Assembly: GCA_003225055.1 (NCBI GenBank)
Contig: QIAU01000183.1
Span: 1 to 64,000, forward strand
Length of the DNA: 64,000 bases
DNA from: Acidobacteriota bacterium
Lineage (GTDB): Bacteria > Acidobacteriota > Terriglobia > Terriglobales > Acidobacteriaceae
Reading direction: 5' to 3'
The translations under genes were made by a program, and so were the position numbers. Below are positions 17,670 through 62,921 of the stretch, piece after piece. How positions within the stretch are numbered: the first letter of the stretch is position 1; each line of letters starts with the position of its first letter. The notes beneath the pieces are model-generated. The model had not been told where the DNA came from and ran no database searches. It worked only from the letters and a program-made list of their open reading frames with translations.

Positions 17670-18107
17670 TCAGGACAGCGCAACAACGGCGAAACCAGCT
17701 GCGCCGGCGCTCTTAGACAGGCGTTGATCCGCACAGATGAAAGTTCTGCGTGCTGGCCGTTGTTGACACCAAGTTAACGCTGCGGCAAGCTGCAAGCTAT
17801 CAGCAGCCCGCAATCCGAAGGTCTCGAGTAGCCGCGTTGAAAGCTCGCGCAATGTGTCAGACGGCAGAATCTCTCTCCAACCCCGGCTGAGCATATCGAG
17901 ACGGGAGAGGGCGCCCTTCTTGTCCACCTCTTTCAACTTGCCTAGTCTGTGTAAGCGCGCAATCGCACTGTGCACCTCGATCGGGCTCACCCACCATACC
18001 ACTGGCATAGACCGGCGCAGCTGAGATTGCGCTTGACGACTGGTAATCTCATGAACGCACAACGGCACCAGGGCACTGGCATCCCAAAAAGCAGGTTCTC
18101 TGCTCAT
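17670..18107 (-). CDS. vapC: VapC-family PIN-domain toxin
   Basis: 145 residues. The first acidic residue sits in FWDASALVPL (Asp9), acidic helix residues lie around WVSPIEVHSA, and RAADSLQLAAAL and FICADQRL complete the PIN active site. PIN toxins are Mg2+-dependent ribonucleases. The ATG overlaps the antitoxin stop (ATGA), which is the usual translational coupling in vapBC operons. The exact RNA target is unknown. Confidence 0.9.
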   Translation of the reverse strand: MSREPAFWDASALVPLCVHEITSRQAQSQLRRSMPVVWWVSPIEVHSAIARLHRLGKLKEVDKKGALSRLDMLSRGWREILPSDTLRELSTRLLETFGLRAADSLQLAAALTWCQQRPARRTFICADQRLSKSAGAAGFAVVALS

Positions 18108-18394
18108 AAGCTTTCCGCCCGATCATCCAGAAGCGCTTGGACTCCTTCGTTCCTAGGCACTCTTCCTGTGCGGATCTTCAGCAATTCGTCCACGTTGAGC
18201 GCGCTCTGTGGCATTCGCATCTTTCCTGCGGCAACCAATAGCAGTTCCTCTTCGCTTGCTTCACCTGAAGAGAATGGAACCAGTTTTGCCACCGGCAAAT
18301 TTCGATCCCGAATGACGATTTCTTCCCCGCCTTTGGCGAATGTCAGGTACTTGCTCAGCTGATTCTTGAGCTCTGCAACATTAACGCTCCGCAC
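18104..18394 (-). CDS. vapB: VapB/Phd-type antitoxin
   Basis: 96 residues from a GTG at 18,394. An AAAGGAG site lies 6 bp upstream and fixes this start over the ATG at 18,424, which falls inside a palindrome. The N-terminus, SVNVAELKNQLSKYLTFAKG then GEEIVIRDRNLPVAKLVPF, is the Phd/YefM DNA-binding fold. The C-terminal part would wrap the VapC partner. It overlaps vapC by 4 bp and is presumably autoregulated through the upstream palindrome. Confidence 0.9.
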   Translation of the reverse strand: MRSVNVAELKNQLSKYLTFAKGGEEIVIRDRNLPVAKLVPFSSGEASEEELLLVAAGKMRMPQSALNVDELLKIRTGRVPRNEGVQALLDDRAESL

Positions 18395-18407
18395 ATTTAA
18401 CTCCTTT

Positions 18408-18424
18408 ATGGCTATTATAGCCAT
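18408..18424. promoter_or_regulatory. Palindrome, probable VapB operator
   Basis: ATGGCTAT-T-ATAGCCAT is a perfect 8+1+8 inverted repeat ending 1 bp upstream of the antitoxin's AAAGGAG site. The position and symmetry fit autorepression by the VapBC complex. Binding is inferred. Confidence 0.6.
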
Positions 18425-18543
18425 GTTGGGGCGCGAAGGGAATCCCTCTTTATTGAGGCAAACAAAAACCTGCTCATGGACTACCCTTTGAAATCGGGGG
18501 TGCAATGGAAGCGTGCGGCTATTGCGGCCCGAACAGACCGTAT

Positions 18544-18571
18544 CGACGGGATTTGAACCCGTGTTAGCGCC
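18544..18571 (-). repeat. tRNA-Glu-like 3' fragment (T arm)
   Basis: 28 bp matching the tRNA-Glu 3' fragments at 60,131 and 63,913 with one mismatch, containing the T-arm core GGGTTCAAATCCC. The acceptor end is not conserved. It lies just upstream of vapBC and may be an old attachment site. Confidence 0.45.
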
Positions 18572-18762
18572 GTATCGGCTGGTGGGTTTCGAACCCGATC
18601 GCATTCCACACATTCACGAAGCCTCACACTTCCTTGGAAATTCTTCACCCGATCTTATCGACCAAGTCGGTGAGGCACTTCAAGACCCCGAGGTCCCCTT
18701 TCAAGTCGTGCCTGAATTTCGGCACATTTGTGCGATTTGAAACCGAGGTGAGACTTGACCAA

Positions 18763-27280: not shown

Positions 27281-28165
27281 CATCATTCGGGGTAAACTGA
27301 AGACTCCAGAGAAACGCAAGAAACTGCAGGACCTGTTGGCCGGACTGCGGCTAGACGTCAACACAGATGGCCGACGTCCTTGACTTCGATCACGATGGCG
27401 GAGGCCGTGGAACATTACAAACTTCACGAGCTTGCCGACTCTGGTCACGAAGGCGAAGCGTATTCGACCCGGAATAGAAAAACTCGAGTTCTGAACCGTT
27501 GGATTGTTCCTCATTGGGGAAAACTTGAGCTTCGAGCCATCAAAACTGTTGCGGTTGAGCAATGGCTTAAGACTCTCGTCACTGAGAAGTTGGGCAAATG
27601 GAAAGCGGGAACGGATACCCGAGATTCTCGAAACTGAAGAGATGCAGAAGCTCCTTGCAGCTCTCGGCATTCGAGAAAGAGCCATGGTCTTCTTGGATAT
27701 GCCTTCTGGCCTTCGGCGCGGAGAGTTGGCCGGGCTGAAATGGGGGGACTTCGACTTCAAGAATCTCCATGCTGTCACTCCGTATAAGCAACCATCCGAT
27801 TATGTGTGGGCTACCGCAGCGAACCGGGCGGGGGCGAAACGCGGAAAGCAGCCCGTCTGGCTGAGTGCTGTTATGAGGGATATCATCCAGCCGGCGGCGC
27901 GAAAACCGGGAATCACCAAAAAAAACTCGTGGCATACTTTCGCCACACCTTCTCTTCCATCCTCAAAGCGAATGGTGAGGACGTCAAAGTAGTGCAGGAG
28001 CTATTCCGGCATACCACGTCCCGCATGACCCTGGACATCTACACCCAAGCGCTGAGCCCGGACAAGCGGGCGGCTCAGGGCAAGGTGGTGAGCATGATCG
28101 GCCCGAAACCAAGTTGTACCGTCGTTGTACCGCGAAACTCTGAGGAAATTCGCGCAAATGGCTGA
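27281..28165 (+). pseudogene. Tyrosine recombinase (integrase) remnant, copy 1
   Basis: The N-terminal core-binding piece reads RVLNRWIVPHWGKLELRAIK then TVAVEQWLKTL. After an internal deletion another frame gives ILETEEMQKLLAALG and GLRRGELAGLKWGDF (catalytic Arg). A third gives YFRHTFSSILKANGEDVKV and HTTSRMTLDIYTQ (catalytic His/Arg and nucleophile Tyr). The parts are in three frames, so no enzyme can be made. The last 400 bp recur at 59,715. Confidence 0.85.
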
Positions 28166-28171
28166 AAAGAT
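27771..28171 (+). repeat. Integrase 3' repeat, copy 1
   Basis: Nearly identical to 59,715-60,129 and in the same orientation. It covers the integrase catalytic domain and about 25 bp past the stop. Copy 1 lacks a base in the HTFRHTF region that copy 2 retains. Confidence 0.85.
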
Positions 28172-29205: not shown

Positions 29206-30063
29206 CTAGTGAGGACTTGATGCAGCGTCTGGCATAGTGCTCAATTCTGATGGCGAGAGCCGGGATCGATCGCAATAGCCATACCCTTTGACGCATGCCG
29301 TGTAGTTCCTCTGGTGCTCAACGGCCTCCATGGCGGCCAATTCTGCCGCTGTCAGCTTGGAGTAGTCGCAAGATTCTGCGCCGCTTTTGCACCCGGAGGC
29401 GTTGCGCCGATGCTCGGCGGCGGTAATTGCGGTGGCTTCCGGTTTAGTCAGTTTCGAGTGTTCACAGGTGCTGTAACCATCCCTGCAAGAGGAGAGGTTA
29501 CGCTGATGTTCGGCAACGGCCACTGAGCTTGCTTCGCGCTGCGTCAGCTTCGAGTAGTTGCAGGTCTCGAAGCCTTCGCTGCAATCTGAGAAATTGCGCT
29601 CGTGTTCGGCAACGGCCACTGCTCTTGCCTCCGGCTGGGTCAGCTTCGAGTAGTTGCAGGTTCCGAAGCCTTCGCTGCAATTCGAGAAATTGCGCTCATG
29701 TTCAGCAACGGCCACTGCCCTTGCTTCCCGCTGGGTCAACTTCGAGTAGTTGCAGGTTCCGGACCCTTCGCTGCAATCTGAGAAATTGCGCTCGTGTTCG
29801 GCAACGGCCACTGCTCTCGTTTCCGGCAGAGTCAATTTGGAGTAGTCGCATGACCCAACGCCGTTCCTACAGTCCAAGAAGGTGCGCTGGTGCTCAGCGG
29901 CGGCAACCGCGATCGCTTCCGCCTGGGTCAGCAAGGCGAAGTCGCAGATCGCCGATCCGCTTGTGCAAGCCGCGAGATTCTCGCGATGGTCGGGTATTTG
30001 AGCAAATAGAAGAACGTGCGAGAGGCTAAGGTACATTAGCCAAGCCCAAGAGGGTCGCCGCAT
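29206..30063 (-). CDS. Secreted Cys-rich 32-residue repeat protein, copy A
   Basis: 285 residues from the ATG at 30,063, set by GGAGG 5 bp upstream. The signal peptide is AWLMYLSLSHVLLFAQ. Eight tandem units of about 32 residues follow with consensus C-x2-G-x3-C-[DNE]-x-SKLT-x2-EA-x-A-[VI]-x-[AV]-AEHxRN. Examples are CSEGSGTCNYSKLT and ARAVAVAEHERN. Each unit has two Cys that could pair, plus a conserved helix. It is probably folded outside the cytoplasm. No named family is known to me. An HTH gene lies directly upstream, and copy B at 47,418 has the same arrangement. Confidence 0.85.
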   Translation of the reverse strand: MRRPSWAWLMYLSLSHVLLFAQIPDHRENLAACTSGSAICDFALLTQAEAIAVAAAEHQRTFLDCRNGVGSCDYSKLTLPETRAVAVAEHERNFSDCSEGSGTCNYSKLTQREARAVAVAEHERNFSNCSEGFGTCNYSKLTQPEARAVAVAEHERNFSDCSEGFETCNYSKLTQREASSVAVAEHQRNLSSCRDGYSTCEHSKLTKPEATAITAAEHRRNASGCKSGAESCDYSKLTAAELAAMEAVEHQRNYTACVKGYGYCDRSRLSPSELSTMPDAASSPH

Positions 30064-30108
30064 ACTGACCTCCAAACGTTTAATGATTTCGCATTGCCGA
30101 TCCAAAGC

Positions 30109-30396
30109 TCATAAGAAACATGCACTCTGCTGAACGACATGCGCTCCGATCAGTCTCCTCGCCTGCACTAGGCGGCGCGAAGTGTCGGTTGTGCTGCGTC
30201 GTTCGCACGCAGAACCTAAGGTGGCCCGTGTGCTTGTCTCCAAAAAGTGACAGAGCCACGATACGCAATCTTGAACTGTAGGTTCCGGAAGCCCTAGCTT
30301 CTTTGCAATCTCGCCGTCATTAAGACCCTGCGCTACCATCTTGTAAACGGGGCCGAGGACATCCATTCTTTCCCATCTTTCCCAAGAAACACGCAT
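30109..30396 (-). CDS. LuxR/GerE-like helix-turn-helix protein, copy A
   Basis: 95 residues. The core, VYKMVAQGLNDGEIAKKLGL then PEPTVQDCVSWLCHFLE, is the four-helix GerE/LuxR DNA-binding domain without a sensor or receiver domain. It resembles the gene at 48,321 (GFNDGEIAKKLDLTELNVQS). The C-terminal 40 residues are unlike that copy. It lies 45 bp before the repeat-protein gene on the same strand, so it probably controls or accompanies it. Upstream signals are weak. Confidence 0.75.
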   Translation of the reverse strand: MRVSWERWERMDVLGPVYKMVAQGLNDGEIAKKLGLPEPTVQDCVSWLCHFLETSTRATLGSACERRSTTDTSRRLVQARRLIGAHVVQQSACFL

Positions 30397-30451: not shown

Positions 30452-30736
30452 TCATCTGCATGTGCTGTTACCCGGTTCCTCGTGGGGTTCGAGCCTGGGT
30501 TTGGCCTCTTCCACTTTCAGAGGGATGCGCAATACCGCCGTCCCATTCAAGCTTACAACGGCCTTCATCGCAGCAATGTCATTTGTCATCTCGACAAAGG
30601 CAAAACCGGGTGGATATCCGGTATTGGGGTCCGTTATGATCTGGACTTCTTCGACTGCTCCGTACGTTTGAAACAACGTACCAAGTTCGTCCGGTGCCAG
30701 ATTAGAGGACAGGTTTCCAACAAATAAGTTTTTCAA
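30452..30736 (-). CDS. RRM-type RNA-binding protein
   Basis: 94 residues from a TTG with an AAAGGA site 6 bp upstream. It is a single RNA recognition motif with RNP2 LFVGNL (residues 4-9) and RNP1 GFAFVEM, then a charged tail. Bacterial RRM proteins of this size bind single-stranded RNA, often under cold or stress conditions. It works in the cytoplasm. The targets are unknown. Confidence 0.92.
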   Translation of the reverse strand: MKNLFVGNLSSNLAPDELGTLFQTYGAVEEVQIITDPNTGYPPGFAFVEMTNDIAAMKAVVSLNGTAVLRIPLKVEEAKPRLEPHEEPGNSTCR

Positions 30737-30852: not shown

Positions 30853-31155
30853 TCACTCTCTTCTTCTGTAGGCGTCTGCACCTGGAGCAAGCCGTTGCGA
30901 CCAAGATTGGGCCGGCGGCGAGAATGCATCCTGGTGCTGCATAATCAATTCCAAGTTGTGCGCCAGATCGACGGACTTATATCCATTCTCGAAGTGGATT
31001 CCGCCGGTGTGAAACGTGGAAGGCGACATCCAGTATTCACACGCCAGGTGCCAATGGCCCCGAGTCGTCGACAACCAAAGCTTGAGATATTCGATGGAAT
31101 CTCGTGGACCGAAGGCGTAATCAACATGGATCAGCCCTGATTCGTTAGCTTGCAT
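30853..31155 (-). CDS. Hypothetical protein
   Basis: 100 residues from the ATG at 31,155; an alternative GTG lies at 31,179, and neither has a strong ribosome site. The sequence HVDYAFGPRDSIEYLKLWLS then RGHWHLACEYWMSP is rich in aromatic residues and looks soluble. No family is recognised. It lies downstream of the membrane-protein gene on the same strand. Confidence 0.5.
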   Translation of the reverse strand: MQANESGLIHVDYAFGPRDSIEYLKLWLSTTRGHWHLACEYWMSPSTFHTGGIHFENGYKSVDLAHNLELIMQHQDAFSPPAQSWSQRLAPGADAYRRRE

Positions 31156-31223
31156 CAGATCTCGCCAACTCAACATCACCGCGCATTAAAGAATGCGGTC
31201 GAGACTATCGCACTTTTCCGGTC

Positions 31224-31574
31224 TCATAACGACTCGCTTCCGGGCATACGGTCAGTGATCGATGCAATCGATAGCCTGCGCTGTGGCTGCAAGAGCTCGA
31301 GCGAAAAGAAAAATAGAAGCAGCGTGAGAGTACTCACCACCACGAAAACGTATTTCGAGAATCCAATCGGTAGAATGGGATTGAACAGGCCCGCGACGAG
31401 CAGAAATAGACTCATCCAGACGTACTGGCGCATACCCGCCGCTTGCACGAGAACGACAAAGGCTGCTGCCGAGACCACGAATTGGAGAAGGATCCCGTAG
31501 CCTCCGAGCGGACGCCAGAAAAGACCTCCAATCAACACGGCAATCGCAACCCATTTCAAAATCTTGGTAAGCAT
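31224..31574 (-). CDS. Small integral membrane protein (DUF6804-like)
   Basis: 116 residues with four hydrophobic segments (near residues 5-22, 27-48, 52-72 and 76-95) and a GGGAGG site before the ATG. The pattern LFWRPLGGYGILLQFVVSAA and FNPILPIGF resembles the DUF6804 four-helix membrane family. It sits in the inner membrane. No function is known. Confidence 0.75.
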   Translation of the reverse strand: MLTKILKWVAIAVLIGGLFWRPLGGYGILLQFVVSAAAFVVLVQAAGMRQYVWMSLFLLVAGLFNPILPIGFSKYVFVVVSTLTLLLFFFSLELLQPQRRLSIASITDRMPGSESL

Positions 31575-31680: not shown

Positions 31681-32112
31681 TCAGCCGCACGCCCATTCAG
31701 CATCCTTCCGGTTTGTCCGCCGTTGTTGGATGTCATCCAAGCGACAACTCTGTTGTATGTGCCGGCAGTTTGCGGAAACGCTGGTGTATGGCACGCCTAA
31801 GAAGTCTTTGGCAGTTATCCCGGTGACTTCAAGACAATTGAAGTTTTGATCGCTCGTCTTAGCTAAAATCCGCTTCAACGCCTTCCGAATGTTCTTTGCT
31901 CCCACAGACCCGAAGAACATCGCTTTCACTTCTCCCGCCATGAAGAAGAAGTTCCAGCCAGCGGCATGAATTTTACGGTCGAGAGCGAAGCCATTTCCGG
32001 CTCCAACTACGCTCCAGGTCCCGACATACCCCTCACTCTCGATCCCCAGCGCCTGCGCTATCGAGGCCCGGTCGTCGATGAGAACGGTACCGACTTGAAT
32101 TTCTTGTGACAT
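31681..32112 (-). CDS. Conserved hypothetical protein
   Basis: 143 residues. An AGAGGA site lies just before the ATG. The sequence VGTVLIDDRASIAQALGIES, LDRKIHAAGWNFFFMAGEVK and FNCLEVTGITAKDFLGVPY has the look of a conserved soluble domain seen in acidobacterial genomes. No catalytic motif or family name can be given. The last 20 residues are basic and may be a decayed extension. Confidence 0.6.
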   Translation of the reverse strand: MSQEIQVGTVLIDDRASIAQALGIESEGYVGTWSVVGAGNGFALDRKIHAAGWNFFFMAGEVKAMFFGSVGAKNIRKALKRILAKTSDQNFNCLEVTGITAKDFLGVPYTSVSANCRHIQQSCRLDDIQQRRTNRKDAEWACG

Positions 32113-33375: not shown

Positions 33376-34356
33376 TTAGCGCGATTCGCGCCGCCGTTCG
33401 TAAGATCCGTTGGCATCCAACCAATCCAAGAGACCACGAATGCTGCCTCGAGCCAGAGCGATCGAGCAATCTGCAGCCCCATAGTAAAGATTGATAGTAT
33501 CGCCATCTGCCGCCATGGTGTATCCGCAGGGGAACACAACGTCGTGGACATCGCCATGCCGCTCGTACTCGGCCTCCGGCCCAAAGATCCACGAGTCTCC
33601 ACGAAGCAAACATTTTTCCGGCTTTTCAATGTCGAAAAGAGCCAAGCCCAATCGATACAAACAGCCCGAAGGCGTGTGCCGTACTCCGTGATAAAGCACC
33701 AGCCATCCTCGCGGCGTCTCAATCGGTGGAGGCGACAACCCTATCTTGTTCGCGTCCCACCATGCCCCACGGCGAGCCTCCAGCATGAGCTTGTGATTGC
33801 CCCAGTGACGCAGATCGGGGGAGTAAGAGATCCACATGTGAGTCCCGAGGGGCGTCATGGGCCGATGAATTAGCGCCCAGAACCCATCAATTCTGCGAGG
33901 CAGGAGAGCGGTGTCCTTGTCTTCGGGCGACATGATGACGCCATATCTCTCAAAAGTTCGGAAATCCTTAGTCAATGCCAGCGAGACCCCCGGACCACCC
34001 CGGGAAAAAGACGTGTACGTCACGACGTACTGCTGAAGTTCTGGCACGAAGGTGATGCGCGGATCCTCAATTCCCCATATTTCCTCGGGATATTCATTGG
34101 GACTGGGCATCAAGGTGGGCTGGCTATCAATTTCCCACCCGTCCACTCCATTTCGCGAGCGGGCAGCACAGAAGTGTGATAGACCGCGGCGATCTTCTAC
34201 TCGACAAAGCAACAGGGTCGAACCATCCGCGAGCAGCGTTGCCCCGGCATTGAAAACGCTGTTGATGGTGTAAGGCCAGTCTCTGCCCGTCAGGATTGGA
34301 TTGGCAGGGTGGCGAAGGAGCAAAGGCTCAAAACGAGTGGCTATAGCAATACTCAT
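33376..34356 (-). CDS. GH130-type mannoside phosphorylase
   Basis: 326 residues. The five-bladed propeller motifs of GH130 are visible: HPANPILTGRDWPYTINSVF then NAGATLLADGSTLLLCRVED, EEIWGIEDPRITFV, RGAWWDANKIGLSPPPIET and GWLVLYHGVRHT. In GH130, a single Asp (the IEDPR motif) drives phosphorolysis of beta-mannosides. The gene starts 6 bp after the fusion glycosyltransferase gene and surely shares its transcript. Together they suggest making and trimming of a mannose-containing glycan or compatible solute. Confidence 0.88.
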   Translation of the reverse strand: MSIAIATRFEPLLLRHPANPILTGRDWPYTINSVFNAGATLLADGSTLLLCRVEDRRGLSHFCAARSRNGVDGWEIDSQPTLMPSPNEYPEEIWGIEDPRITFVPELQQYVVTYTSFSRGGPGVSLALTKDFRTFERYGVIMSPEDKDTALLPRRIDGFWALIHRPMTPLGTHMWISYSPDLRHWGNHKLMLEARRGAWWDANKIGLSPPPIETPRGWLVLYHGVRHTPSGCLYRLGLALFDIEKPEKCLLRGDSWIFGPEAEYERHGDVHDVVFPCGYTMAADGDTINLYYGAADCSIALARGSIRGLLDWLDANGSYERRRESR

Positions 34357-34362
34357 AAGATT

Positions 34363-36786
34363 TCACGAATTGTCGAAGGAACATCCAGTGCCAGACACAA
34401 CAACCTCTGATTCAAAAGAGATTGCCTTCATCGCCGGAGGTTGGAACTCTTGCAGCAGGTGCATTTCCGCCAGGGCCATTAGGAATGCCAGCGACGACTC
34501 CGCTCCCTGATTCTCATTAACTCGCTCCGGATGCAGCCCATCCCGACAGCCGCCGGTACTCGGGTCGTAAAGCGGAATTCGGAGATCGTTCTCCCCCATG
34601 AACCAGTTGAAAGCTGACCAGGCTTCCTTGCGCCAACGATCGTTTCCGGTTACACGATAGGCTTCAAGACATGCCGAGACAGCACCCCCTGCCTCTACAG
34701 GCTGCTGGTCAAACCGAGCCCTCTCGCCTGCCTTGCGATAAAAACCTTGCGATCCGATCGGGACGAAGTGGCCGTTCTCCTCGCACCGCTGTAAGGATGT
34801 GAGCCAATCTAATGCTCCGACACCAGCCGAGAGAGCACGGTGGTCCCCCGTCCGAGAGCCTGCCAGCAGAACGGCTTGCGGCAATCTCGCATTTGAGTAA
34901 GCCAGGACGTTTTCAAACCAGTTCCACTGTGGCGACTGATTTGAGTCATAGAGTTGGATCAGGCGATTCACCAGAACTGATCTCAGCTGCTGAGCATCCC
35001 GGTCGCCGGGAAAGCAGTCGAGATATTCCTGAATCCCAAGCAATGCGAAAGACCAGGCACGTGGGCTGGTGAAGGCAACGGCTGCGGCAACGGCGTTCTC
35101 GAAGATTCGACCCGCGGCACCCCTGAGCCCTTGCTCTTTAGACCGGCCCACAACAGTTCCAAGCGCCCACAATGCACGCCCATGACTATCCTCTGAACCT
35201 TCGGCTTCCTTCCATTCGCGTGAATAACTCAGGAAGTTTCGGAACCTGCCGGTCGCCGGATTGAAAGCATGTCCGAGAAAAGCTAAGTACCGCCCAGCGA
35301 AATCATCACCCATGCCCAACTGCTCGAGGAGAACGGCCAAGACGAGTGCGCGAGCGTTGTCGTCGGTCGTATACCCCTCGCCGTAGTTCGGGACGGTAAA
35401 GATCGCGTGCTGAAGTATGCCCGTGTCATCCGTCAGTCGATGCAGATGATCCAGGTTTAACAGTGGTAAGCGATTGAAGCCTTTTTCCGGCTCTGTATCC
35501 GAGAACACAGCGCGTGGCTTCCGCATTCGCTCCGCCCGCGCCCTTTCAAAGCTTCCCCCATAACGATGCGCAACCCTCTCCCACACCATGTTCCGCGCAT
35601 AAAGATAGGCGCGTTTACGCATCGCGTGGCGCGCCGCGTCATTATCCAGAAGTTCTATCGTTTTTTCGGCAATGGCAATCGGGTTTCCGAACGGGACCAA
35701 CACTCCTCGCCGATCGTCCAACAGTTCGAGGGCGTGCCAATACGGAGTCGAAATTATCGCCTTTCCAGCGCCTAACGCGTACGCCAGGGTGCCCGACACC
35801 ACCTGCTGCTCGTGGCGATAAGGCGTGATGTAAATGTCTGCCGCACTAATAAGTTCGCCCATCTCTTCAGCGCTGACAAATTGGTTATGGAAGATGACAT
35901 GCGACTCAACTCCCAGGTCCTTGGCGAGGGCCTGCAAGTAAGCTCGATACTGCTCGCCATCACGGCGGAGAACGTGGGGATGCGTCGCACCTGCGACCAT
36001 GTAAACCACGTCATCGTGTTGAGACAAAATCCGTGGAAGAGCCTGGATTACGTTCTCGATCCCTTTATTGGGCGAGAGCAAGCCGAAGGTGAGTAGTACT
36101 GCCTTTCCTTCTGTCCGAAAGCGATCCTTGTAGAAATTTGGATCGACAAACGGCAGGTCCGGAACCCCGTGGGGGATGAAGTCGATCTTGTCGCCAGGCA
36201 CTTTGAATATCTCTTGTAAGAACTGGGCAGAAAGTTCGCTCATCACAATGAGACGATCCGACCCCGCAGCGATTTCCTCCATCACCAGCCGTTGGTCAAG
36301 ACTCGGTTCACGAAGAACCGTATGGAGGGTGGTTATGACTGGCATCTTGAGCCGCCGTAGCAGGGCCAAGATGTGACTTCCCGCCGGACCGCCAAAGATC
36401 CCATATTCGTGCTGCAGGGATACCAAATCGAAGTTTGTGAAATTCAGAAACTCAGCGGCTTGCTCGTAAGATGACAAATCGTCCTGTGCAAGCGCGAGCC
36501 TGACCCGCGCAGGATACGGATACCCTGATTCCGTGTCATTGACCGGGATGGCAAACAGCCGTGCTGCACCATACTCGGTAGAAAGCGCTTCGCACAAATC
36601 GGTGGTAAACGTGGCGATCCCGCACTGCCGCGGAAGATAGTTGCCAATCACGGCTATGCGGCTCGGGAGCGATGCCCCCGACGCCAATCGAGCGGTTATG
36701 GCGGGCACTTGAGGGGATGCGACTGGGCGCCTATTCACAAGTTCGAGTGTTCGGGTAGAAGTCATGGTCTCCATTACTGACATCAA
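34363..36786 (-). CDS. GT4 glycosyltransferase fused to an alpha/alpha-hairpin domain
   Basis: 807 residues, with AGGA before the ATG. Residues about 40-420 are a GT-B glycosyltransferase: IAVIGNYLPRQCGIATFTTD, LLTFGLLSPNKGIENVIQAL and the donor-site YRHEQQVVSGTLAYALGAGK. Residues about 440-780 have repeated helical hairpins with GYTTDDNARALVLAVLLEQL, EDSHGRALWALGTVVG and EAGGAVSACLEAYRVTG, like six-hairpin glycosidases. It is cytoplasmic and in an operon with GH130. It probably elongates a mannose-containing product. The hairpin domain's activity is unproven. Confidence 0.88.
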   Translation of the reverse strand: MMSVMETMTSTRTLELVNRRPVASPQVPAITARLASGASLPSRIAVIGNYLPRQCGIATFTTDLCEALSTEYGAARLFAIPVNDTESGYPYPARVRLALAQDDLSSYEQAAEFLNFTNFDLVSLQHEYGIFGGPAGSHILALLRRLKMPVITTLHTVLREPSLDQRLVMEEIAAGSDRLIVMSELSAQFLQEIFKVPGDKIDFIPHGVPDLPFVDPNFYKDRFRTEGKAVLLTFGLLSPNKGIENVIQALPRILSQHDDVVYMVAGATHPHVLRRDGEQYRAYLQALAKDLGVESHVIFHNQFVSAEEMGELISAADIYITPYRHEQQVVSGTLAYALGAGKAIISTPYWHALELLDDRRGVLVPFGNPIAIAEKTIELLDNDAARHAMRKRAYLYARNMVWERVAHRYGGSFERARAERMRKPRAVFSDTEPEKGFNRLPLLNLDHLHRLTDDTGILQHAIFTVPNYGEGYTTDDNARALVLAVLLEQLGMGDDFAGRYLAFLGHAFNPATGRFRNFLSYSREWKEAEGSEDSHGRALWALGTVVGRSKEQGLRGAAGRIFENAVAAAVAFTSPRAWSFALLGIQEYLDCFPGDRDAQQLRSVLVNRLIQLYDSNQSPQWNWFENVLAYSNARLPQAVLLAGSRTGDHRALSAGVGALDWLTSLQRCEENGHFVPIGSQGFYRKAGERARFDQQPVEAGGAVSACLEAYRVTGNDRWRKEAWSAFNWFMGENDLRIPLYDPSTGGCRDGLHPERVNENQGAESSLAFLMALAEMHLLQEFQPPAMKAISFESEVVVSGTGCSFDNS

Positions 36787-43551: not shown

Positions 43552-45228
<1,677 letters not shown>

Positions 45229-46571: not shown

Positions 46572-47123
46572 ATGGCCAGCCTTTCGAACGACCCTGACTG
46601 AACCTTACCAAACCAGGGTTGCCCAGTCTGCTCAATAACGCTCACATTGCTCCCCCGGCAACATTCTTTCGCTCAACCTAATAGCTCAATCTCGGAACCC
46701 TAACCTGCCGGCGCCGCTCGGCCAAGGCGCGCAAATGGCCTTCCTTGCTAAGATCGCCCGAGCTATGCGTACCGTGCTGGGCAGCCGTTTCATTGCTCCG
46801 AGGAACACGAGTCTGGGCGGCGAAGTGCGCCCATCATCGCCTGCGAGCGCAGTCGACAGAAGGCCTTGAAACAGTTCACGAGATGGGGCCAAACGGCCCA
46901 GGAGCCATTGGAAAAGCGCAATACGTCAAGGCCTGGGGCGAGGACGACGGGGCGGGAGTGCTACGGGACCGATAGGTTCGCCTAAACTGGCCCACCACTC
47001 TCCGTTGCGGGATCGTGATTTCAGGTAACAAAATCCCAGACTCGTTGCAATAGCCGCAGGATAGGCTCGAAAAGCAGCTCGTACAGCAGGGTTCTTAGTG
47101 GGCGATTCATTAAGATCGCCTAC
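46572..47123. other. Intergenic region
   Basis: No frame has both a start signal and a recognisable motif. Confidence 0.35.
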
Positions 47124-47352
47124 TCACTGGAAGTAGCTCCCCCCGGTCCCGAGTATCCCGTCGCGTCGGGTGTTGTTGGCGATACCTGCGTTGGGACAGC
47201 CTTCGTCATACATTCGCAATGAAGCTTCTTGATCAGCGCCTTGACCTTTGGAGTAGAGGAAGTTGTGGACCAGGGTCCGGGGAAGCTTGCCTCGTATCGG
47301 CGCTCCGATCTCGTCGGTTGGTTCCTTGAAAGGTGTTGGTCGTTCTCACCAT
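47124..47352 (-). pseudogene. Small hypothetical protein, GCPN-motif copy 2, frameshifted
   Basis: The ATG at 47,352 has a good GGAGAG site but its frame soon departs. The conserved block (LPRTLVHNFLYSKGQ then GADQEASLRMYDEGCPN) is in another frame ending at 47,124. One indel separates start and body, so this copy looks broken relative to copy 1. Confidence 0.45.
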
Positions 47353-47417
47353 GAATTGCTCTCCTTCACATGTGTGTTCGCGAGTAAGCTCTATGCGGTC
47401 TTGTCACCCCTGCAGTG

Positions 47418-48290
47418 CTATTGGGGAATTGGGTTGTACTGGGCCGGAATCGCTCTGGCTTCTGAGGGCGTTAGCCGCGAGCGATCGCAGTACCCCTGGC
47501 CCCTTGAGACATGCTGAGTAATTTCGCTTGCGGTCGGCGGAGGCCAATGCCCTAGCTTCTGCTGAGTGAGTTTGGAGTAGTGGCGGGTCTTTTGGCCGTC
47601 CTTACAAGCAGAGAGATTGCGCTGGTGGTCCGCGACGGCTGTCTGACGGGCTTCCGAGGGAGTGCGCCTTAAGTGGTCGCACTCGTCCCAGCCATTTTCA
47701 CAATTCTGCGCGTTGCGCTGGTGTTCTGCGGCGGTCACTACCCTCGTTTCCGAAGGAGTTAGCCTGGAATGATCGCAGAGCCCAGCGCCATTCTTACAGT
47801 CGGAGACGTTGAGCTGGCGTTTGGCAGTGTCCACTGCCCCCGCTTCCGACGAACTCAGTTTGGAGCGGTCGCAATCGCCTACCCCGTCTTTGCGGTTGGC
47901 GAAGTTGCGCTGGTGCTCCGCGACGGCCATTTCACGGGCTTCGGACTGGCTCAGTTTAGACCGGTCGCAGGACCCCATGCCATCGTTGCAGTTGGAGATA
48001 TTACGCTGGTGATCGGCTAGTGCCAACGCGATAGCTTCGGGTTCGGTTAGTTTCGAATGGACACAGGGTTCGAAGCGGTCTCTGCAATTCGCAATGTTGC
48101 GTTGGTGATCGGCGAGCGCCACGCCGGCTGATTCGGATTCGGTCAGCTTAGAGCGATCGCAGGCCCCGCGGCCGTTCTTGCAAGCCTCCAGATTCTGCGC
48201 AAAATCAGAGGACTGAGCAAATGCCAGAATAGGCAAAAGACTGAGGCAAGCTATTTGCGCCCAGAGATATTTCCGTAGACTGACTCTCAT
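47418..48290 (-). CDS. Secreted Cys-rich 32-residue repeat protein, copy B
   Basis: 290 residues with a signal peptide (LWAQIACLSLLPILAFAQ). Eight units of about 32 residues, such as CKNGRGACDRSKLTESESAG and CNDGMGSCDRSKLSQSEARE, match copy A at 29,206. Units 4, 7 and 8 have lost one Cys, and units 7-8 pass through a pair of compensating indels (QQKLGHWPPPTASEITQHVS replaces EARALASADRKRNYSACLKG of the other frame). It lies downstream of an HTH gene, as in copy A. It is exported and likely disulfide-stabilised. Confidence 0.85.
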   Translation of the reverse strand: MRVSLRKYLWAQIACLSLLPILAFAQSSDFAQNLEACKNGRGACDRSKLTESESAGVALADHQRNIANCRDRFEPCVHSKLTEPEAIALALADHQRNISNCNDGMGSCDRSKLSQSEAREMAVAEHQRNFANRKDGVGDCDRSKLSSSEAGAVDTAKRQLNVSDCKNGAGLCDHSRLTPSETRVVTAAEHQRNAQNCENGWDECDHLRRTPSEARQTAVADHQRNLSACKDGQKTRHYSKLTQQKLGHWPPPTASEITQHVSRGQGYCDRSRLTPSEARAIPAQYNPIPQ

Positions 48291-48320
48291 TATGTGCCAA
48301 CTCTCGATTGATAGGCAAAG

Positions 48321-48518
48321 CTATGCTGCAGCTAAGGCGTATACGACCAGCTCTTGACGGTCCTTCAGCTTCAAGAAATGAAGTGTCCAGGCTATGCAGC
48401 TTTGTACGTTTAATTCGGTGAGATCCAACTTCTTTGCGATTTCACCATCATTGAACCCTTGACCCAACAAGCGATAGATCGGGCCAAGGGCACCCATTTG
48501 CTCCCAAAAGCAGCGCAT
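48321..48518 (-). CDS. LuxR/GerE-like helix-turn-helix protein, copy B
   Basis: 65 residues, only a DNA-binding domain: GPIYRLLGQGFNDGEIAKKL then DLTELNVQSCIAWTLHFLKL and KDRQELVVYALAA. The last helix matches the C-terminal helix of NarL/GerE domains better than copy A does. It is 30 bp upstream of the repeat-protein gene. With no sensor domain it may be a stand-alone regulator, like GerE. Confidence 0.8.
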   Translation of the reverse strand: MRCFWEQMGALGPIYRLLGQGFNDGEIAKKLDLTELNVQSCIAWTLHFLKLKDRQELVVYALAAA

Positions 48519-48625
48519 TTGACGCCTCCATCGTGAGTTCCGTCACCCCAAGTCTGTGGTGCTGACCGGAACCAGTACGTGGTTCCGGTCAGCGGAAATC
48601 CGATGATCGTAGGATCCCACACAGA

Positions 48626-49296
48626 TTACTTCCTGTCTTCTTTCGCTTCCGCAACGTGCACTTGTTGGCCTGCATCTGACACGGCCTTGATGAATGCGGC
48701 CGCACTTTCCGGAGTTGACACCTTGCCCGAAAGAATGTTTCGGAACTTCATGTTCTTGCCGTAAATAGCGCGCGTCGAGCCGTCATCCTGCTGCACGACC
48801 GCACCTTCGAGTGTCAGGCCGGCGAACACTCCCTTCGAGCGTGAGTAGGTCAGCATTCGAGTGTTCATCTTCCAGTCGGTTCCGGCGGCCGCGTGACGGC
48901 CAACCGGGCCTGCTGCAACTAATCCTTCGCCGGTCAATTGAAACTTAGTAGAGAGCAAATGCTGGAAATCCTGGTCGTTCATGCCTAGCATGACCAGGTC
49001 CACGCCTTCGACTCCGATCTGCAATCCCCAACTTCCTCGACCAACTGAGACGAACGCGGGCGCACTCCAGCCTGCAGTAGTACGGCAAGAGGCCACGCCA
49101 CGTCCGTGCTTGCCCCAAAAATGAAGCCACCTTTAATGAGGTCTGGCACTACCAGGATGCACTTTGCATTGCTCAGCACTTCTTCCGGGATACCTTTGTC
49201 CGGTATTGACATAATCGCATGCAGAACATCCACGGACTTTTGCAGGCGGTCAACCGTGTCTTCCCGAGCCGAGCCTGCCCACGCGTTAAGTTCCAA
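48626..49296 (-). pseudogene. SYLF-domain (Ysc84-like) protein, frameshifted
   Basis: One frame gives REDTVDRLQKSVDVLHAIMS then PDKGIPEEVLSNAKCILVVP and DLIKGGFIFGA. The other gives VASCRTTAGWSAPAFVSVGR, GSWGLQIGVEGVDLVMLGMN and GKNMKFRNILSG. Joined, they make a full SYLF lipid-binding domain. An indel near 49,105 splits it, and the signal-peptide region upstream of 49,296 is also out of frame. Confidence 0.85.
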
Positions 49297-49337: not shown

Positions 49338-50000
49338 TCAACACAGCGCAGAAATTTCATCACGCATATAGTCGCGTGCGCGTTCAATGATGTATCTATT
49401 CTTGCTCGGACAGAAGCGGCATGGCGCTTCAAACACTTCGCCGGCGGTTTCTTCTACTACCGTCAACTGAAACGCCCGCAGACATTCTGCGCATGTCACT
49501 ACCACATACGGCATGCCCTGTGAGTCATTCCCATTGCGAGGAATCCAAGCTGGAGCACCCTCCTTCAGATGGGCACTCACCCAGGTGTCGGATGTTCGAA
49601 TTAGGTCCGCAACGGTTGCCAAGAGATGCTTCGGACTCTGCCCTTTAGCAAAAAAGCTGTCGGCAATCACGTCAGGGGGTACGGCATCGCCTTGATAGTC
49701 GCCGCTCATCGCCACAGTCATGATTTGTGGGAAACGCCGGCGGACGACGGAGAGTAGCTCATAACCTGACATCTGCGGCATGTTGAGGTCGGAAACGATT
49801 ACGTCAGGCAGCATCTTTCTTAGCTGCAAAAGCGCCCCAAAGCCATCCTCCGCAGCGGTCACATCGTATCCGGCTGACGTCAACAGCACGGCAACAGTCT
49901 CGCGGACACTCGGCTCGTCATCGACCACAAGCACTTCACGGTTCGTAGGCACTCTCTCTGCGTTTTGCAGGTACATCATCACGTGCGAGCAGTCTCGCAT
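49338..50000 (-). CDS. Response regulator with C-terminal Cys-rich domain
   Basis: 220 residues. GGAGG precedes the ATG. The receiver domain is clear: VLVVDDEPSVRETVAVLL (acidic pocket), VIVSDLNMPQMSGYELL (phospho-Asp) and IMTVAMSGDYQGDAVPPDVI then FFAKGQSPKHLL (conserved Lys). After a linker, a small domain has VVVTCAECLRAFQL and FEAPCRFCPSKNRYIIERAR, two CxxC pairs likely to bind zinc, and no DNA-binding domain. A TGGTCA-type palindrome covers 50,019-50,034, just upstream of the start. The partner kinase is not in the window. Confidence 0.9.
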   Translation of the reverse strand: MRDCSHVMMYLQNAERVPTNREVLVVDDEPSVRETVAVLLTSAGYDVTAAEDGFGALLQLRKMLPDVIVSDLNMPQMSGYELLSVVRRRFPQIMTVAMSGDYQGDAVPPDVIADSFFAKGQSPKHLLATVADLIRTSDTWVSAHLKEGAPAWIPRNGNDSQGMPYVVVTCAECLRAFQLTVVEETAGEVFEAPCRFCPSKNRYIIERARDYMRDEISALC

Positions 50001-54745: not shown

Positions 54746-56733
54746 AGTTGTCTTGATCGGCATAGGGGGACGGGTCACCCCGCCTCCCCTGCCACACCAC
54801 CGTACATGCGGGTCCGCATACGGCGGTTCGGCGGATTAAGCTAGGACCGTACGACTAGGGGCAGAAGCCCGAGCTCAGCAAAGTAGGCATTAGGCAAGGC
54901 AATCGCCAGAGCGGGCGAGTTCGCGAGCCGCCACGGACCGTGAGGGCTCCCGGCCGTTTGTGCTGCCAGGTCCTTACTGACGCCCCGTTTGCGAAGCTCG
55001 CGGAACCGTGTCCGTCCGCGCTTCCATTGCTTCCACACCACCGACCGCAGTCGGCGGCGTACCCACGTTTCAAGGTCGTGCAACACCGAAGGCGTTTGAC
55101 AGTCGCCGAAGTATCCGAGCCATCCTCGCAGATAAGTCGCGATCTCCTTGACCATCTGCTGCAGGCTGATGCCGCGGGTTCTCCGGGTCTGCTCCCGAAT
55201 CCGCTCCTTGAAGCGAGCGATGGCCTTGGGGGCGATCCGCCGCCTCGGTTCTCGTTCGCTCGTGAAGCTGAATCCAAGAAACTTCCTTTGCCACGGTCGG
55301 GCTACGGCGCTCTTCGCCTGATTTACCTTGAGCTTGAGACGATGCATGATGAAGCGCGTAACGCTCTCCATCACTCGTTGTCCCGCTCGTTCGCTGCCCA
55401 CGTAGATGTTGCAATCGTCGGCATAACGCACGAAGCGGTGACCACGCCGCTCTAACTCCCGGTCCAGTTCGTCCAGCACCAAGTTGGAAAGTAAGGGTGA
55501 AAGCGGACCGCCCTGAGGCGTTCCCTCATCCACCGCACTTACCAACCCGTCCTCCATCACTCCGGCCTCCAGAAACGCTCGAATCAACTTGAGCATTCGC
55601 TTGTCGGCCACACGCTTGGCGACCGCCGCTAACAGGCGGTCGTGGTTTACTCGATCAAAAAATTTTTCTAGGTCGAGGTCCACCACCCAGCGGTACCCTT
55701 CGGCGATGTACTGCTGCGCCTCGTGCACCGCCTGCTGTGCGCTACGCCCCGGTCGAAAACCGTGGCTGTGTTCGGAGAACGTCGGATCCCAGCGCTTCTG
55801 CAGAACCTGCAGCACTGCTTGCTGAACAAAGCGGTCCAGCACACAAGGAATGCCCAACTCGCGCATTCCCTGACCGTCCGGCTTGGAGATTTCCACTCGC
55901 TTGACCGGTCGCGGCTGATAGGTTCCGTTTCGTAGCTGTCCCCCGATTTCTAGCCCATGCTGCTTTAGGTATTCCGGAAGTTCCTCGACGGTCATCCCGT
56001 CTACTCCCGGACTCCCTTTATTGGCCTTGACTCGTTGTAACGCCTGCTTGCAGTTTTCCAGCCCGCAGACTTCCTCCATCAGTCGTTCAGTTCCGGCCAG
56101 GCTTTCTGACTTGCGCTTCGCCACGGGCGTTTCGGTCCCTTCCTCGGTGGCCGTCGGAGCATCACTCCTACTCTCCACCGCAAAGGCCAGCACCCCTTGT
56201 TCGGGCCGGTTTTTCTGCCGCCGTTCGCTCATGAGTCGCGCCGCTTACTCGCCTTTCCTTTATTCCCCTTGCGGGGTACCGTTCGGGCCTTCGATCATCG
56301 TTCCCGGCTTGGCCTATCCGTTGCTCCGTCTTTCGACTTTGGAGTGCCTCACTAGCCTCGCCGACGGCATGACCTACTTTGCCCTCTGCTGACTTCTGCG
56401 ACACGGTCAGGATGAATTGCTTCACCCTCAGTCACGATTCCGTGACATGCCGCAGATCTCCCGAGGTAAGCTCGACCGCCTTCCACGCGCAACCGCCGGA
56501 TCTACCACCAGTGAGCTTGATGGATATGGGCTTCGCAATCAACTGCTTGCTCGCCCGTCACCGTAGGCCTCGTATCCGGTTCTTGTTCATCAGTTCGCGT
56601 CTTTGCTCCACGCTTCTTTCAGGCCCCGCCTCGCGGCGGGTGTGATTTCGCCCTTGCGCTTCGCTATCACTTCACGTCCATCACGTTGTGAAGAGGACTT
56701 GCACCTCCAAGCTGTCGAACATGCTCGGCACAC
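54746..56733 (-). mobile_element. Group II intron
   Basis: The RNA begins GTGTGCCGAGCATGTTCG at 56,733 and carries its reverse transcriptase gene in domain IV. Near the 3' end (54,760-54,840, minus strand) lie a domain V-like hairpin (CCGTATGCGG...CCGCATGTACGG) and a GGCGGGGTGACCCGTCCCC hairpin as domain VI. The whole is about 2 kb. It sits inside the DUF5615 toxin gene. The exact 3' boundary is uncertain by several bases. Confidence 0.8.
54841..56232 (-). CDS. ltrA: Group II intron reverse transcriptase/maturase
   Basis: 463 residues. Reverse transcriptase motifs include KGSPGVDGMTVEELPEYLK, GIPCVLDRFVQQAVLQVL, EGYRWVVDLDLEKFFDRVNH (first Asp), GTPQGGPLSPLLSNLVLDEL and FVRYADDCNIYV (YADD catalytic site), then the maturase X domain near RGISLQQMVKEIATYLRGWL. 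No H-N-H endonuclease domain follows; the protein ends FAELGLLPLVVRS. It splices and retrotransposes the intron. The gene is intact. Confidence 0.96.
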   Translation of the reverse strand: MSERRQKNRPEQGVLAFAVESRSDAPTATEEGTETPVAKRKSESLAGTERLMEEVCGLENCKQALQRVKANKGSPGVDGMTVEELPEYLKQHGLEIGGQLRNGTYQPRPVKRVEISKPDGQGMRELGIPCVLDRFVQQAVLQVLQKRWDPTFSEHSHGFRPGRSAQQAVHEAQQYIAEGYRWVVDLDLEKFFDRVNHDRLLAAVAKRVADKRMLKLIRAFLEAGVMEDGLVSAVDEGTPQGGPLSPLLSNLVLDELDRELERRGHRFVRYADDCNIYVGSERAGQRVMESVTRFIMHRLKLKVNQAKSAVARPWQRKFLGFSFTSEREPRRRIAPKAIARFKERIREQTRRTRGISLQQMVKEIATYLRGWLGYFGDCQTPSVLHDLETWVRRRLRSVVWKQWKRGRTRFRELRKRGVSKDLAAQTAGSPHGPWRLANSPALAIALPNAYFAELGLLPLVVRS

Positions 56734-58561: not shown

Positions 58562-59359
58562 CACGATGCGCCAAAGAGAGGAGTCAAGCTGAGAAGCCCG
58601 CGAGAGTGGTCTCAATATAGGCCCGCAGAAAGATGGCGGCGGCCCAACGTACAAGGTGGGTCAAGTGGAAAGCCAAACGAAACTAAAACTCTCTCGACCG
58701 CGGCTCCGGATTCTGCTTGACAATCCTGCGTCTGGGTGTAAGGTGTTGACACTGAGTCAAACCCACTCTCCCCGCGTGCTGTCACTCTCCCAGCGTGCTG
58801 TCAGTGTGATCTCTCAAATAGCCGGAAGAACAGGTGAATTATGCTTCTGCGAGGAGCGCCTACGAGAGAGCCATTTCCTCCTCCCGGCATCGTCAGCGAT
58901 AATGCGACCCGGCAAAAACGCAAAGCGTTGCTTCAGGCGTGCAGGGAGCAACTGCAAAGTCAAAGCCGGTACGTGACGGCGGAAGCGACTCGAACCCTGA
59001 AGCAGTCAGATGCCGTCTCAATCGTTCGCGTCATCTGTCGCCGGTTTCATGCCGCGGTGGTGCAACTCCAGAGTCAGCAGCGCCAGGCCCTCCAAATCAA
59101 CAACGAGTATGACGTTCAGGATATTCTGCATGCTTTGCTGGAGCTTCATTTCAACAACGTTCGCGCGAAGCAGCCAACGCCGTCGTTTCGTGGTGAGCTC
59201 TCGCGGACGGACTTCCTGTTGAAGAACGGACAAATTGTGGTAGAGGCGAAAATCACGCGTGCCACGCTCGCTGAGAAGGAAGTGTGCTTCGAGCTAATGG
59301 AGGATGCGGCGCATTACAAGCGGAACGGCGACTGTCAGAGGTTGGTCTGCCTTGTGTAC
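58562..59359 (+). repeat. Direct repeat copy 1 (nuclease region)
   Basis: About 97% identical to 62,120-62,921 in the same orientation, covering 280 bp upstream of the nuclease gene and 519 bp of its coding region. It ends in the CTTGTGTACG of the LVCLVY codons. Confidence 0.9.
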
Positions 59360-59458
59360 GATCCTCAAGGGTTCATTAAGAACCCGCGCGGAGTTGAAAC
59401 CGAGATACGGAAGCTATCCTCCGCCTCGCTGGGCGTGGAGCTAATCGTCGCATCATGA
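58841..59458 (+). CDS. DpnII/MboI-like PD-(D/E)XK nuclease, intact copy
   Basis: 205 residues. The restriction-endonuclease-like core has INNEYDVQDILHALLELHFN (residues 87-105), then SRTDFLLKNGQIVVEAKITR with D124, E135 and K137 as the PD-(D/E)XK site, and LVCLVYDPQGFIKNP. It matches the REase_DpnII-MboI domain found with or without partners in defence loci. The N-terminal 60 residues are less conserved. The ribosome site is weak (AGGTG). Confidence 0.85.
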   Translation: MLLRGAPTREPFPPPGIVSDNATRQKRKALLQACREQLQSQSRYVTAEATRTLKQSDAVSIVRVICRRFHAAVVQLQSQQRQALQINNEYDVQDILHALLELHFNNVRAKQPTPSFRGELSRTDFLLKNGQIVVEAKITRATLAEKEVCFELMEDAAHYKRNGDCQRLVCLVYDPQGFIKNPRGVETEIRKLSSASLGVELIVAS

Positions 59459-59714: not shown

Positions 59715-60123
59715 GCTGTCACTCCGTATAAGCAACCATCATAAGCAACCATCCGATTATGTGTGGGCTACCGCAGCGAACCGGGCGGGGGCGAAACGCG
59801 GAAAGCAGCCCGTCTGGCTGAGTGCTGTTATGAGGGATATCATCCAGCCGCCGGCGCGAAAACTGGGAATCACCAAAAAAATCTCGCGGCATACCTTTCG
59901 CCACACCTTCTCTTCCATCCTCAAAGCGAATGGTGAGGACGTCAAAGTAGTGCAGGAGCTATTGCGGCATACCACGTCCCGCATGACCCTGGACACCTAC
60001 ACCCAAGCGCTGAGCCCGGACAAGCGGGCGGCTCAGAGCAAGGTGGTGAGCATGATCAGCCCGAAACCAAGTTGTACCGTCGTTGTACCGCGAAATTCTG
60101 AGGAAATTCGCGCAAATGACTGA
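59715..60123 (+). pseudogene. Tyrosine recombinase C-terminal fragment, copy 2
   Basis: The frame keeps ISRHTFRHTFSSILKANGED then VKVVQELLRHTTSRMTLDTY with the catalytic RHTFRH residues and Tyr, and ends SEEIRAND. The core-binding domain and Arg I are missing. It abuts a tRNA-Glu fragment, as site-specific integrases usually do. Confidence 0.85.
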
Positions 60124-60129
60124 AAAGAT
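59715..60129 (+). repeat. Integrase 3' repeat, copy 2
   Basis: Nearly identical to 27,771-28,171, with a 13-bp tandem duplication (ATAAGCAACCATC). It ends 1-2 bp before a tRNA-Glu 3' fragment. Confidence 0.85.
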
Positions 60130-62119: not shown

Positions 62120-62921
62120 CACGATGCGCCAAAGAGGGGAGTCAAGCTGAGAAGCCCGCCCGCGAGAGTGGTCTCAATATAGGCCCGCAGAAAGATGGCG
62201 GCGGACCCAACGTACACGGTGGGTCAAGTGGAAAGCCAAACGAAACTAAAACTCTCTCGACCGCGGCTCCGGATTCTGCTTGACAATCCTGCGTCTGGGT
62301 GTGGTGTCGCCACTGAATCAAACCCACTCTCCCCGCGTGCTGTCACTCTCCCAGCGTGCTGTCAGCGTGATCTCTCAAATAGCCGGAAGAACAGGTGAAT
62401 TATGCTTCTGCGAGGAGCGCCTACGAGAGAGCCATTTCCTCCTCCCAGCATCGTCAGCGATAATGCGACCCGGCAAAAACGCAAAGCGTTGCTTCAGGCG
62501 TGCAGGGAGCAACTGCAAAGTCAAAGCCGGTACGTGACGGCGGAAGCGACTCGAACCCTGAAGCAGTCAGATGCCGTCTCAATCGTTCGCGTCATCTGTC
62601 GCCGGTTTCATGCCGCGGTGGTGCAACTCCAGAGTCAGCAGCGCCAGGCCCTCCAAATCAACAACGAGTATGACGTTCAGGATATTCTGCATGCTTTGCT
62701 GGAGCTTCATTTCAACAACGTTCGCGCGAAGCAGCCAACGCCGTCGTTTCGTGGTGAGCTCTCGCGGACGGACTTCCTGTTGAAGAACGGACAAATTGTG
62801 GTAGAGGCGAAAATCACGCGTGCCACGCTCGCTGAGAAGGAAGTGTGCTTCGAGCTAATGGAGGATGCGGCGCACTACAAGCGGCACAGCGACTGTCAGA
62901 GGTTGGTCTGCCTTGTGTACG
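62120..62921 (+). repeat. Direct repeat copy 2 (nuclease region)
   Basis: The mate of 58,562-59,359. It ends mid-gene, after the codons for LVCLVY, where it joins the truncated reductase gene. Confidence 0.9.

Follow-up and report, generated by a model that had tools for sequence, protein, structure and literature searches.

The window, a stretch of 64,000 nucleotides from an acidobacterial contig, carries two genes for proteins that are built from cysteine-paired units of 32 residues. These proteins belong to a repeat family that is real, unnamed and conserved, and its members are probably exported, as far as their sequences can tell. The linkage of such genes to a stand-alone HTH gene of the LuxR/GerE type is also real, but it concerns a minority of the loci. 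As the leading explanation, which we put forward tentatively, the repeat protein would be an exported, disulfide-stapled scaffold that in some lineages is regulated by the linked mini-LuxR protein. The two loci comprise the following features of the window:

29206..30063, minus strand: repeat protein 1, 285 aa, intact, with its ATG at 30063 and eight 32-residue C-x6-C units
29209..29967, minus strand: eight-unit array of repeat protein 1, from residue C33 to the C-terminus (unit table and TRF)
30109..30396, minus strand: stand-alone LuxR/GerE-type HTH 1, ORF of 95 aa, with subfamily homology over 30217-30378
47418..48290, minus strand: repeat protein 2, 290 aa, damaged, with five intact Cys pairs and a shifted-frame stretch
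48321..48518, minus strand: stand-alone LuxR/GerE-type HTH 2, 65 aa, intact, with a gap of 30 bp to repeat gene 2
48626..49296, minus strand: SYLF/Ysc84 gene that precedes HTH 2, distributed over two reading frames

The 32-residue unit

The leader of repeat protein 1 is hydrophobic, ends in ...LLFAQ and resembles a signal peptide by eye, and it is from this leader that we infer export. In the mature part, the unit spacing is exactly 32 residues and the 16 cysteines make up eight C-x6-C pairs; TRF reports a 96-bp period at 29507-29850 (3.6 copies, 87% matches, score 506). An earlier note on this DNA had described eight units with a period of 32 residues or 96 bp at 29 kb, which these data bear out, and the gene order, strand and coordinates that it gave for both loci were found in the window as described.

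A consensus was derived from 152 units of 21 acidobacterial, Janthinobacterium and Cupriavidus proteins, leaving out the 47-kb copy, and reads C-[KR]-[ND]-G-x-x-[ST]-C-D-x-S-K-L-T-x-x-E-A-x-x-V-A-x-A-E-H-Q-R-N-x-S-x. The invariance of Cys 1 in the unit table is a consequence of how the units were cut, and Cys 8 occurs in 145 of the 152 units, the cysteines of the remaining seven being spaced differently. Gly 4 (132 units), Leu 13 (141), Arg 28 (122) and Asn 29 (132) are also well kept, and a histidine occupies position 26 in 84 units. In the acidobacterial proteins with 8, 11 or 12 units the spacing is exactly 32 residues and the repeat part contains no odd cysteine, save for two irregular spacings in G301 and one in G277; the extra cysteine of the C63 protein sits in its read-through tail, and the 4-unit protein of G253 has nine cysteines. 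The spacing between the two cysteines is 7 in acidobacterial units, with a single one of 6 in G301, and a spacing of 9 is found only in the Cupriavidus relative. As the first and the last cysteine both stand in complete pairs, pairing within the unit (C1-C8) is the simplest arrangement and leaves no cysteine over.

The units are not interchangeable. Across 14 proteins, unit i best matches unit i, with a mean identity of 0.50-0.69 on the diagonal versus 0.36-0.49 off it. The 29-kb copy follows this register less strictly, its units matching their positional counterparts in 42 of 104 comparisons versus 56-83 of 104 for the 13 other proteins, and its units 3-5 are 78-91% identical to one another, which together suggest that the middle of this copy was probably re-expanded or converted recently. 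Ten compared pairs of intact repeat genes gave dN/dS values of 0.16-0.26, including 0.16 and 0.26 for repeat gene 1 against two paralogues. Since the same period recurs in relatives from 19 genomes and is accompanied by such low dN/dS values, the 32-residue repeat is not a product of chance.

In the proposed mechanism the repeat gene product would be exported with removal of its signal peptide, and the mature protein would form a rod in which the 32-residue units follow one another. Within a unit, one disulfide (C1-C8) would probably close the C-x6-C loop, and positions 14-28, ahead of the conserved Asn 29, would form a helix of some 15 residues. Positions 14-28 indeed have a high helix propensity, with proline nearly absent past position 16 and glycine rare (144 units, the 47-kb copy and the Cupriavidus protein being left out). 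Counting against the scaffold, a hydrophobic-moment test of positions 14-29 in the same 144 units did not indicate an amphipathic helix (0.03, permutation p 0.98). The rod may present a defined surface that binds a periplasmic, envelope or extracellular partner; such a surface, rather than a bulk polymer, is probable because eight is the usual number of units and a given unit stays recognisable from species to species. A rod stapled by disulfides, should it be confirmed, would be a small scaffold of natural origin and would mark an envelope-stress gene pool in soil acidobacteria.

Two further observations on the array were set aside. A 166-aa ORF on the opposite strand (29529-30029, plus) was rejected, since a 96-bp repeat easily keeps a complementary frame open and the dN/dS values favour the minus frame. 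An IUPAC pattern for the repeat proved too loose in the own genome, with 98 matches versus 106 in a reversed control.

Copies, damage and distribution

The earlier note described two loci, at 29 and 47 kb, in a duplicated arrangement. This picture needs correction: the genome holds five repeat-gene copies (two on C209 and one each on C63, C107 and C279) plus a fragment on C22, and the two window loci are old paralogues with 44% identity. The recent twin of the 47-kb pair lies on C63, of which window positions 46878-48529 are a duplicate (1.65 kb, 94% DNA identity). In a tree of 17 proteins the 29-kb copy adjoins the G301 protein with weak support (80/62) and stands outside a group of 13 that contains C279, C63, C107 and most relatives (support 87/90, open fork). 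As an excerpt of an earlier paper attributes a large paralogue content to acidobacterial genomes (PMC3174227), such a set of copies appears ordinary in kind.

Eight intact units, as had been proposed for the 47-kb copy as well, are not present there. Repeat protein 2 has five C-x6-C pairs, TRF finds no tandem repeat in its gene at score 30, a stretch of about 20 codons near 47.50-47.56 kb is out of frame with the C63 paralogue, and dN/dS against this paralogue is 0.84; the copy was left out of the repeat alignment A2 and the unit tables. At 29 kb the regulator gene is affected instead: the homology of HTH 1 extends over roughly the first 57 of the 65 domain residues, and its last helix continues in another frame. 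Each pair in the window thus has one damaged member, HTH 1 at 29 kb and repeat protein 2 at 47 kb, which also counts against our preferred explanation. Taken further, the window copies could be decaying remnants, with module 2 and its split SYLF gene forming largely a pseudogene block and module 1 being left without a regulator. We consider this rather doubtful, as repeat protein 1 is intact, with a low dN/dS in comparisons with two paralogues, HTH 2 is intact as well, C63 and C279 carry intact copies, and part of the damage could be sequence error in a draft assembly of 301 contigs.

The near sample, the GTDB contig collection and the phylum sample together place the family in 19 distinct acidobacterial genomes; these correspond to 20 matching handles, G376 and G437 showing the same contig, which is also that of L039 and was counted once. 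The near sample has the gene in 3 of 41 genomes and the phylum sample in at least 7 of 396, the own genome being included in both; up to six candidates per genome were scored in the phylum sample, so that some of the 389 others may hold a divergent copy. The GTDB contigs, scanned with short peptide patterns that reach near relatives only, yielded 11 repeat loci. Eight units are present in 16 of the 19 intact acidobacterial proteins, the others having 12 (L037), 11 (G419) and 4 (G253), and the further loci G010, L040 and L041 are fragments or interrupted.

More divergent relatives were found outside the phylum on two betaproteobacterial plasmids; the profile searches of chromosomes covered acidobacterial genomes. 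A conjugative plasmid of Janthinobacterium sp. J1-1 encodes a relative with 33% identity and a mostly 32-residue period (L055 11980-13014), a gene not listed in the PLSDB gene table, and a plasmid of Cupriavidus oxalaticus encodes a 34-residue variant. The latter gene lies directly 3' of a J-domain protein gene with a 4-bp overlap (L056 6469-8855). By eye, the Janthinobacterium protein and the G253 protein (L062 7802-8917) have a C-terminal GY-x-[RK]-x-x-GTYV motif in common. A match on a Rhizobium lusitanum plasmid was rejected as a long low-complexity LTTxQ-type repeat protein that does not have the Cys pattern. Viral contigs gave 82 pattern matches, none of them a relative of the repeat family, and no relative was found in phage records.

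The Janthinobacterium gene is situated between a copper oxidase/TolC group and cueR, which raises the question of metal handling. The 16 cysteines per molecule, together with the histidine of the AEHxRN motif, might serve as periplasmic ligands of copper or another soft metal. However, the G419 units lack this histidine at position 26, as do five of the six regular units of the Janthinobacterium protein, and the neighbour families that were scored around the 23 acidobacterial loci include no metal gene, other neighbours being only skimmed. C-x6-C is also not known as a typical copper motif, and we regard a metal-binding role as improbable.

The stand-alone HTH gene and the wider neighbourhood

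The HTH subfamily consists of putative DNA-binding proteins of 65 residues in which a receiver or ligand domain is absent. A profile of the subfamily matches the DNA-binding domains of NarL (E 7.9e-6) and DevR/DosR (3.4e-5) in the PDB, and single sequences score 20.1 and 14.9 against Pfam PF00196, below its cut-off of 23.5. Apart from the near-identical pair of window and C63 (0.81), dN/dS was 0.06-0.28 in the ten HTH pairs that allowed an estimate, several of them with saturated dS. The C63 gene gave 0.23 against L035 and 0.27 against the G433 C109 gene, so that its product is a protein under selection.

Searched with a profile of seven sequences, nine places scored at least 91 bits, and all other matches listed reached at most 35 bits, nearly all of these being in long reading frames that resemble ordinary regulators. 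The nine places are in five genomes, all of which bear the repeat (G000 with three, G016 and G433 with two each, G301 and G432). The subfamily is therefore present in 5 of 19 repeat-bearing genomes and in none of the 389 sampled genomes in which no repeat gene was detected. In the phylum sample, where up to 15 candidates per genome were scored, this amounts to 2 of 7 repeat-bearing genomes versus 0 of 389 others (Fisher p=2.7e-4), or 1 of 6 when the own genome is removed (p=0.015); in the near sample it is 2 of 3 versus 0 of 38 (p 0.004), or 1 of 2 on removal of the own genome (p 0.05).

At the level of loci the association is looser. All 23 repeat loci were searched with the HTH profile: the gene lies directly upstream of the repeat gene at six, remnants are present at two, and 15 show no trace. 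The remnant at L031 is weak (14-15 bits), and besides the six hits nothing else exceeds 7 bits. The DNA upstream of the C107 gene retains, by eye, only the last HTH codons, and its match to the window DNA runs about 45 bp into the HTH gene; a stretch at L041 resembles the L031 remnant by eye and is not seen by the profile. The fixed two-gene module that had been proposed is thus not upheld, and a SYLF gene is in fact the commoner neighbour, although the order of HTH and repeat gene does recur elsewhere, namely in G301, G432 and G433.

Of the nine HTH places, six are directly upstream of a repeat gene and three have no adjacent repeat gene. This, like the 15 loci without a trace, speaks against the regulator part of our explanation, and it raises the real possibility that the HTH is a bystander, so that HTH and repeat gene would be independent members of a shuffled stress or envelope island whose adjacency results from block duplication. 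In G433 (C109) an HTH gene stands beside groES/groEL-like genes in the absence of a repeat gene, and the G016 places are flanked by Crp and SWADLM genes, with a repeat gene or remnant at a distance of 8-12 kb. Against such independence, the subfamily was seen in none of the 389 genomes in which no repeat gene was detected, and branches whose outer neighbours differ have the same order of HTH and repeat gene: the 29-kb locus and G301 are accompanied by SQEI and DUF6804 (their fork has a support of only 80/62), whereas the 47-kb locus, L034 and L035 are accompanied by SYLF. The gap between HTH and repeat gene is 30 bp at three of the four loci measured and 45 bp at the fourth, that of HTH 1 and repeat gene 1. 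These short gaps make the HTH a likely regulator of a shared unit. We prefer, still tentatively, the regulated scaffold, in which several lineages would have a LuxR/NarL-type DNA-binding protein of 65 residues encoded about 30 bp upstream that most likely regulates a shared transcript. The subfamily would then be a single-domain candidate regulator with a putative target at a distance of only about 30 bp. Near locus 1, promoter-like and terminator-like sites were no more frequent than expected by chance (one promoter-like site was found, 0.9 expected), which does not favour this explanation.

The neighbours that recur around the repeat genes are represented in the window by the following genes, in addition to the SYLF gene:

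30452..30736, minus strand: RRM protein beside locus 1; in L037 a member of this family precedes the repeat gene
30853..31179, minus strand: 'SWADLM' protein family (name coined here), recurrent neighbour; its L037 homologue has no Pfam match
31224..31574, minus strand: DUF6804 (PF20619) protein, recurrent neighbour
31681..32112, minus strand: 'SQEI' protein family (name coined here), recurrent neighbour; no Pfam match
43552..45216, minus strand: GroEL gene (by eye) downstream of locus 2; homologues adjoin the repeat gene on C279, L039 and G104
49338..50000, minus strand: response-regulator-like protein upstream of locus 2; its L036 homologue matches PF00072
51387..52118, minus strand: Crp/Fnr-type regulator upstream of locus 2

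At 10 of 23 repeat loci, a SYLF/Ysc84 gene (PF04366), which is a neighbour and not a homologue of the repeat gene, is found on the same strand no more than 0.7 kb upstream; at window locus 2, L034 and L035 the HTH gene stands between the two. SYLF genes are few (78 copies in about 105 Mb of sequence from 19 genomes), so that the chance of such an adjacency (at most 1 kb, same strand) is estimated at far below 1% per locus. The 10 loci are not independent, however, since most SYLF-linked proteins fall into one group of 9 of the 17 proteins in the tree, and this is a further point against our best reading. A gene or fragment for a Zn-dependent phospholipase C is found on the opposite strand at most 1.3 kb downstream at 5 of the 23 loci, groEL within 2.3 kb at 4, and 12 loci have a Crp-type regulator no farther than 9 kb away; these are plain counts, the genome-wide background control having been made for SYLF only. 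Genes for SQEI, SWADLM, DUF6804, RRM, ABM, response-regulator, Hsp20 and glycosyltransferase/glycosidase proteins also recur in changing order (GroEL, Hsp20, glycosyltransferase and glycosidase being named by eye, and ABM scoring 19 against a Pfam cut-off of 23.1), and the loci of G419 and G253 have none of the scored families. From this changing order it follows that the HTH-repeat pair is a piece of a larger shuffled gene pool, and the repeat gene would be a member of an acidobacterial pool together with SYLF, Zn-dependent phospholipase C, Crp, response-regulator, Hsp20 and GroEL genes.

The SWADLM (30853-31179) and SQEI (31681-32112) genes are often side by side near repeat genes, also at several of L031-L041, and by eye a glycosidase-like and a glycosyltransferase-like gene stay paired close to repeat genes both in the window (33376-36786) and in G277 (L060). 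The window further contains a group II intron on the minus strand, with an RT-like ORF at 54841-56232 (by eye) and Rfam group-II-D1D4-3 at 56470-56640, as well as an 804-bp direct duplication with 97.9% identity (58562-59360 and 62120-62921). Two tyrosine-recombinase-like fragments (by eye; 27784-28171 and 59741-60129), with 97% identity over 389 bp, are likely integrase remnants. Two adjacent small genes at 17670-18613 resemble a PIN-type toxin and an antitoxin by eye.

It is conceivable, though on balance doubtful, that all this amounts to a new exported architecture. It would consist of a mostly eight-unit rod with one short-range disulfide per 32-residue unit and with position-specific units, spread across Acidobacteriota and betaproteobacterial conjugative plasmids, provided in some lineages with its own single-domain LuxR-type regulator and embedded in an envelope-stress gene pool.

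Comparison with known families

Searches of Pfam, NCBIfam, PHROGs and the PDB gave no match that names the repeat family, and none that was above a curated cut-off or convincing, in agreement with the earlier note, which knew of no named family. Among the open-licence papers listed, no title or opening of an abstract describes this repeat, which is weak evidence of absence. Several matches were rejected as matches of composition: Pfam LacAB_rpiB (23.3 bits versus a cut-off of 24.7, in two of ten members), a DUF7739 row in one of ten members, the NCBIfam D-erythrulose-4-phosphate isomerase (23.8 versus a cut-off of 240) and two PHROGs rows with no function (6.8e-5 over 18 residues; 0.0027). The two isomerase matches span about one and a half units. 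The repeat plan, with its 32 residues, two cysteines and mostly eight units, is unusually rigid, lies outside the searched curated libraries and is under purifying selection.

The nine-sequence profile A5 weakly matches the designed TALE repeats of PDB 4hpz (dTale2; whole-sequence E 5.4e-4) over an LTP and helix-like stretch, and the acidobacterial profile A3 has no PDB hit. TALE repeats have 34 residues, as opposed to 32 in the acidobacterial unit, and the single-stretch E values were 1.8-81, so that membership of the TALE family was rejected; the match probably reflects no more than a similar LTP-plus-helix start in the sequences. For the linked regulator, GerE of Bacillus offers a parallel, being a stand-alone LuxR-type HTH that regulates structural coat protein genes; this is an analogy only, and the acidobacterial loci have no sporulation context.

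The closest likeness in design is to HcpB and HcpC, the Sel1-like proteins of Helicobacter, and to Csep1P of Campylobacter concisus, in which, according to an excerpt of PMC12904459, an internal disulfide stabilises each alpha-alpha hairpin. It is this plan of a secreted solenoid with one internal disulfide per repeat, which the acidobacterial protein would have in common with them, that would suggest a disulfide-linked alpha/alpha repeat protein descended together with the Sel1-like/Hcp proteins and diverged beyond sequence recognition. Such a descent is unlikely in our view: no Sel1 or TPR row was obtained from Pfam at E values up to 10 in one scan and 0.01 in two (HMMER filters drop weak matches), the acidobacterial profile is without a PDB hit, and the cysteine spacing of 7 within a 32-residue unit differs from the 9 given for Csep1P in the same excerpt. 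The acidobacterial protein, described here from its sequence, differs from the Sel1-like/Hcp proteins in its 32-residue unit, its taxa and its gene neighbours, and what it has in common with HcpB, HcpC and Csep1P, as portrayed in that excerpt (PMC12904459), is one conserved Cys pair per repeat, a likeness in the way such proteins would work.
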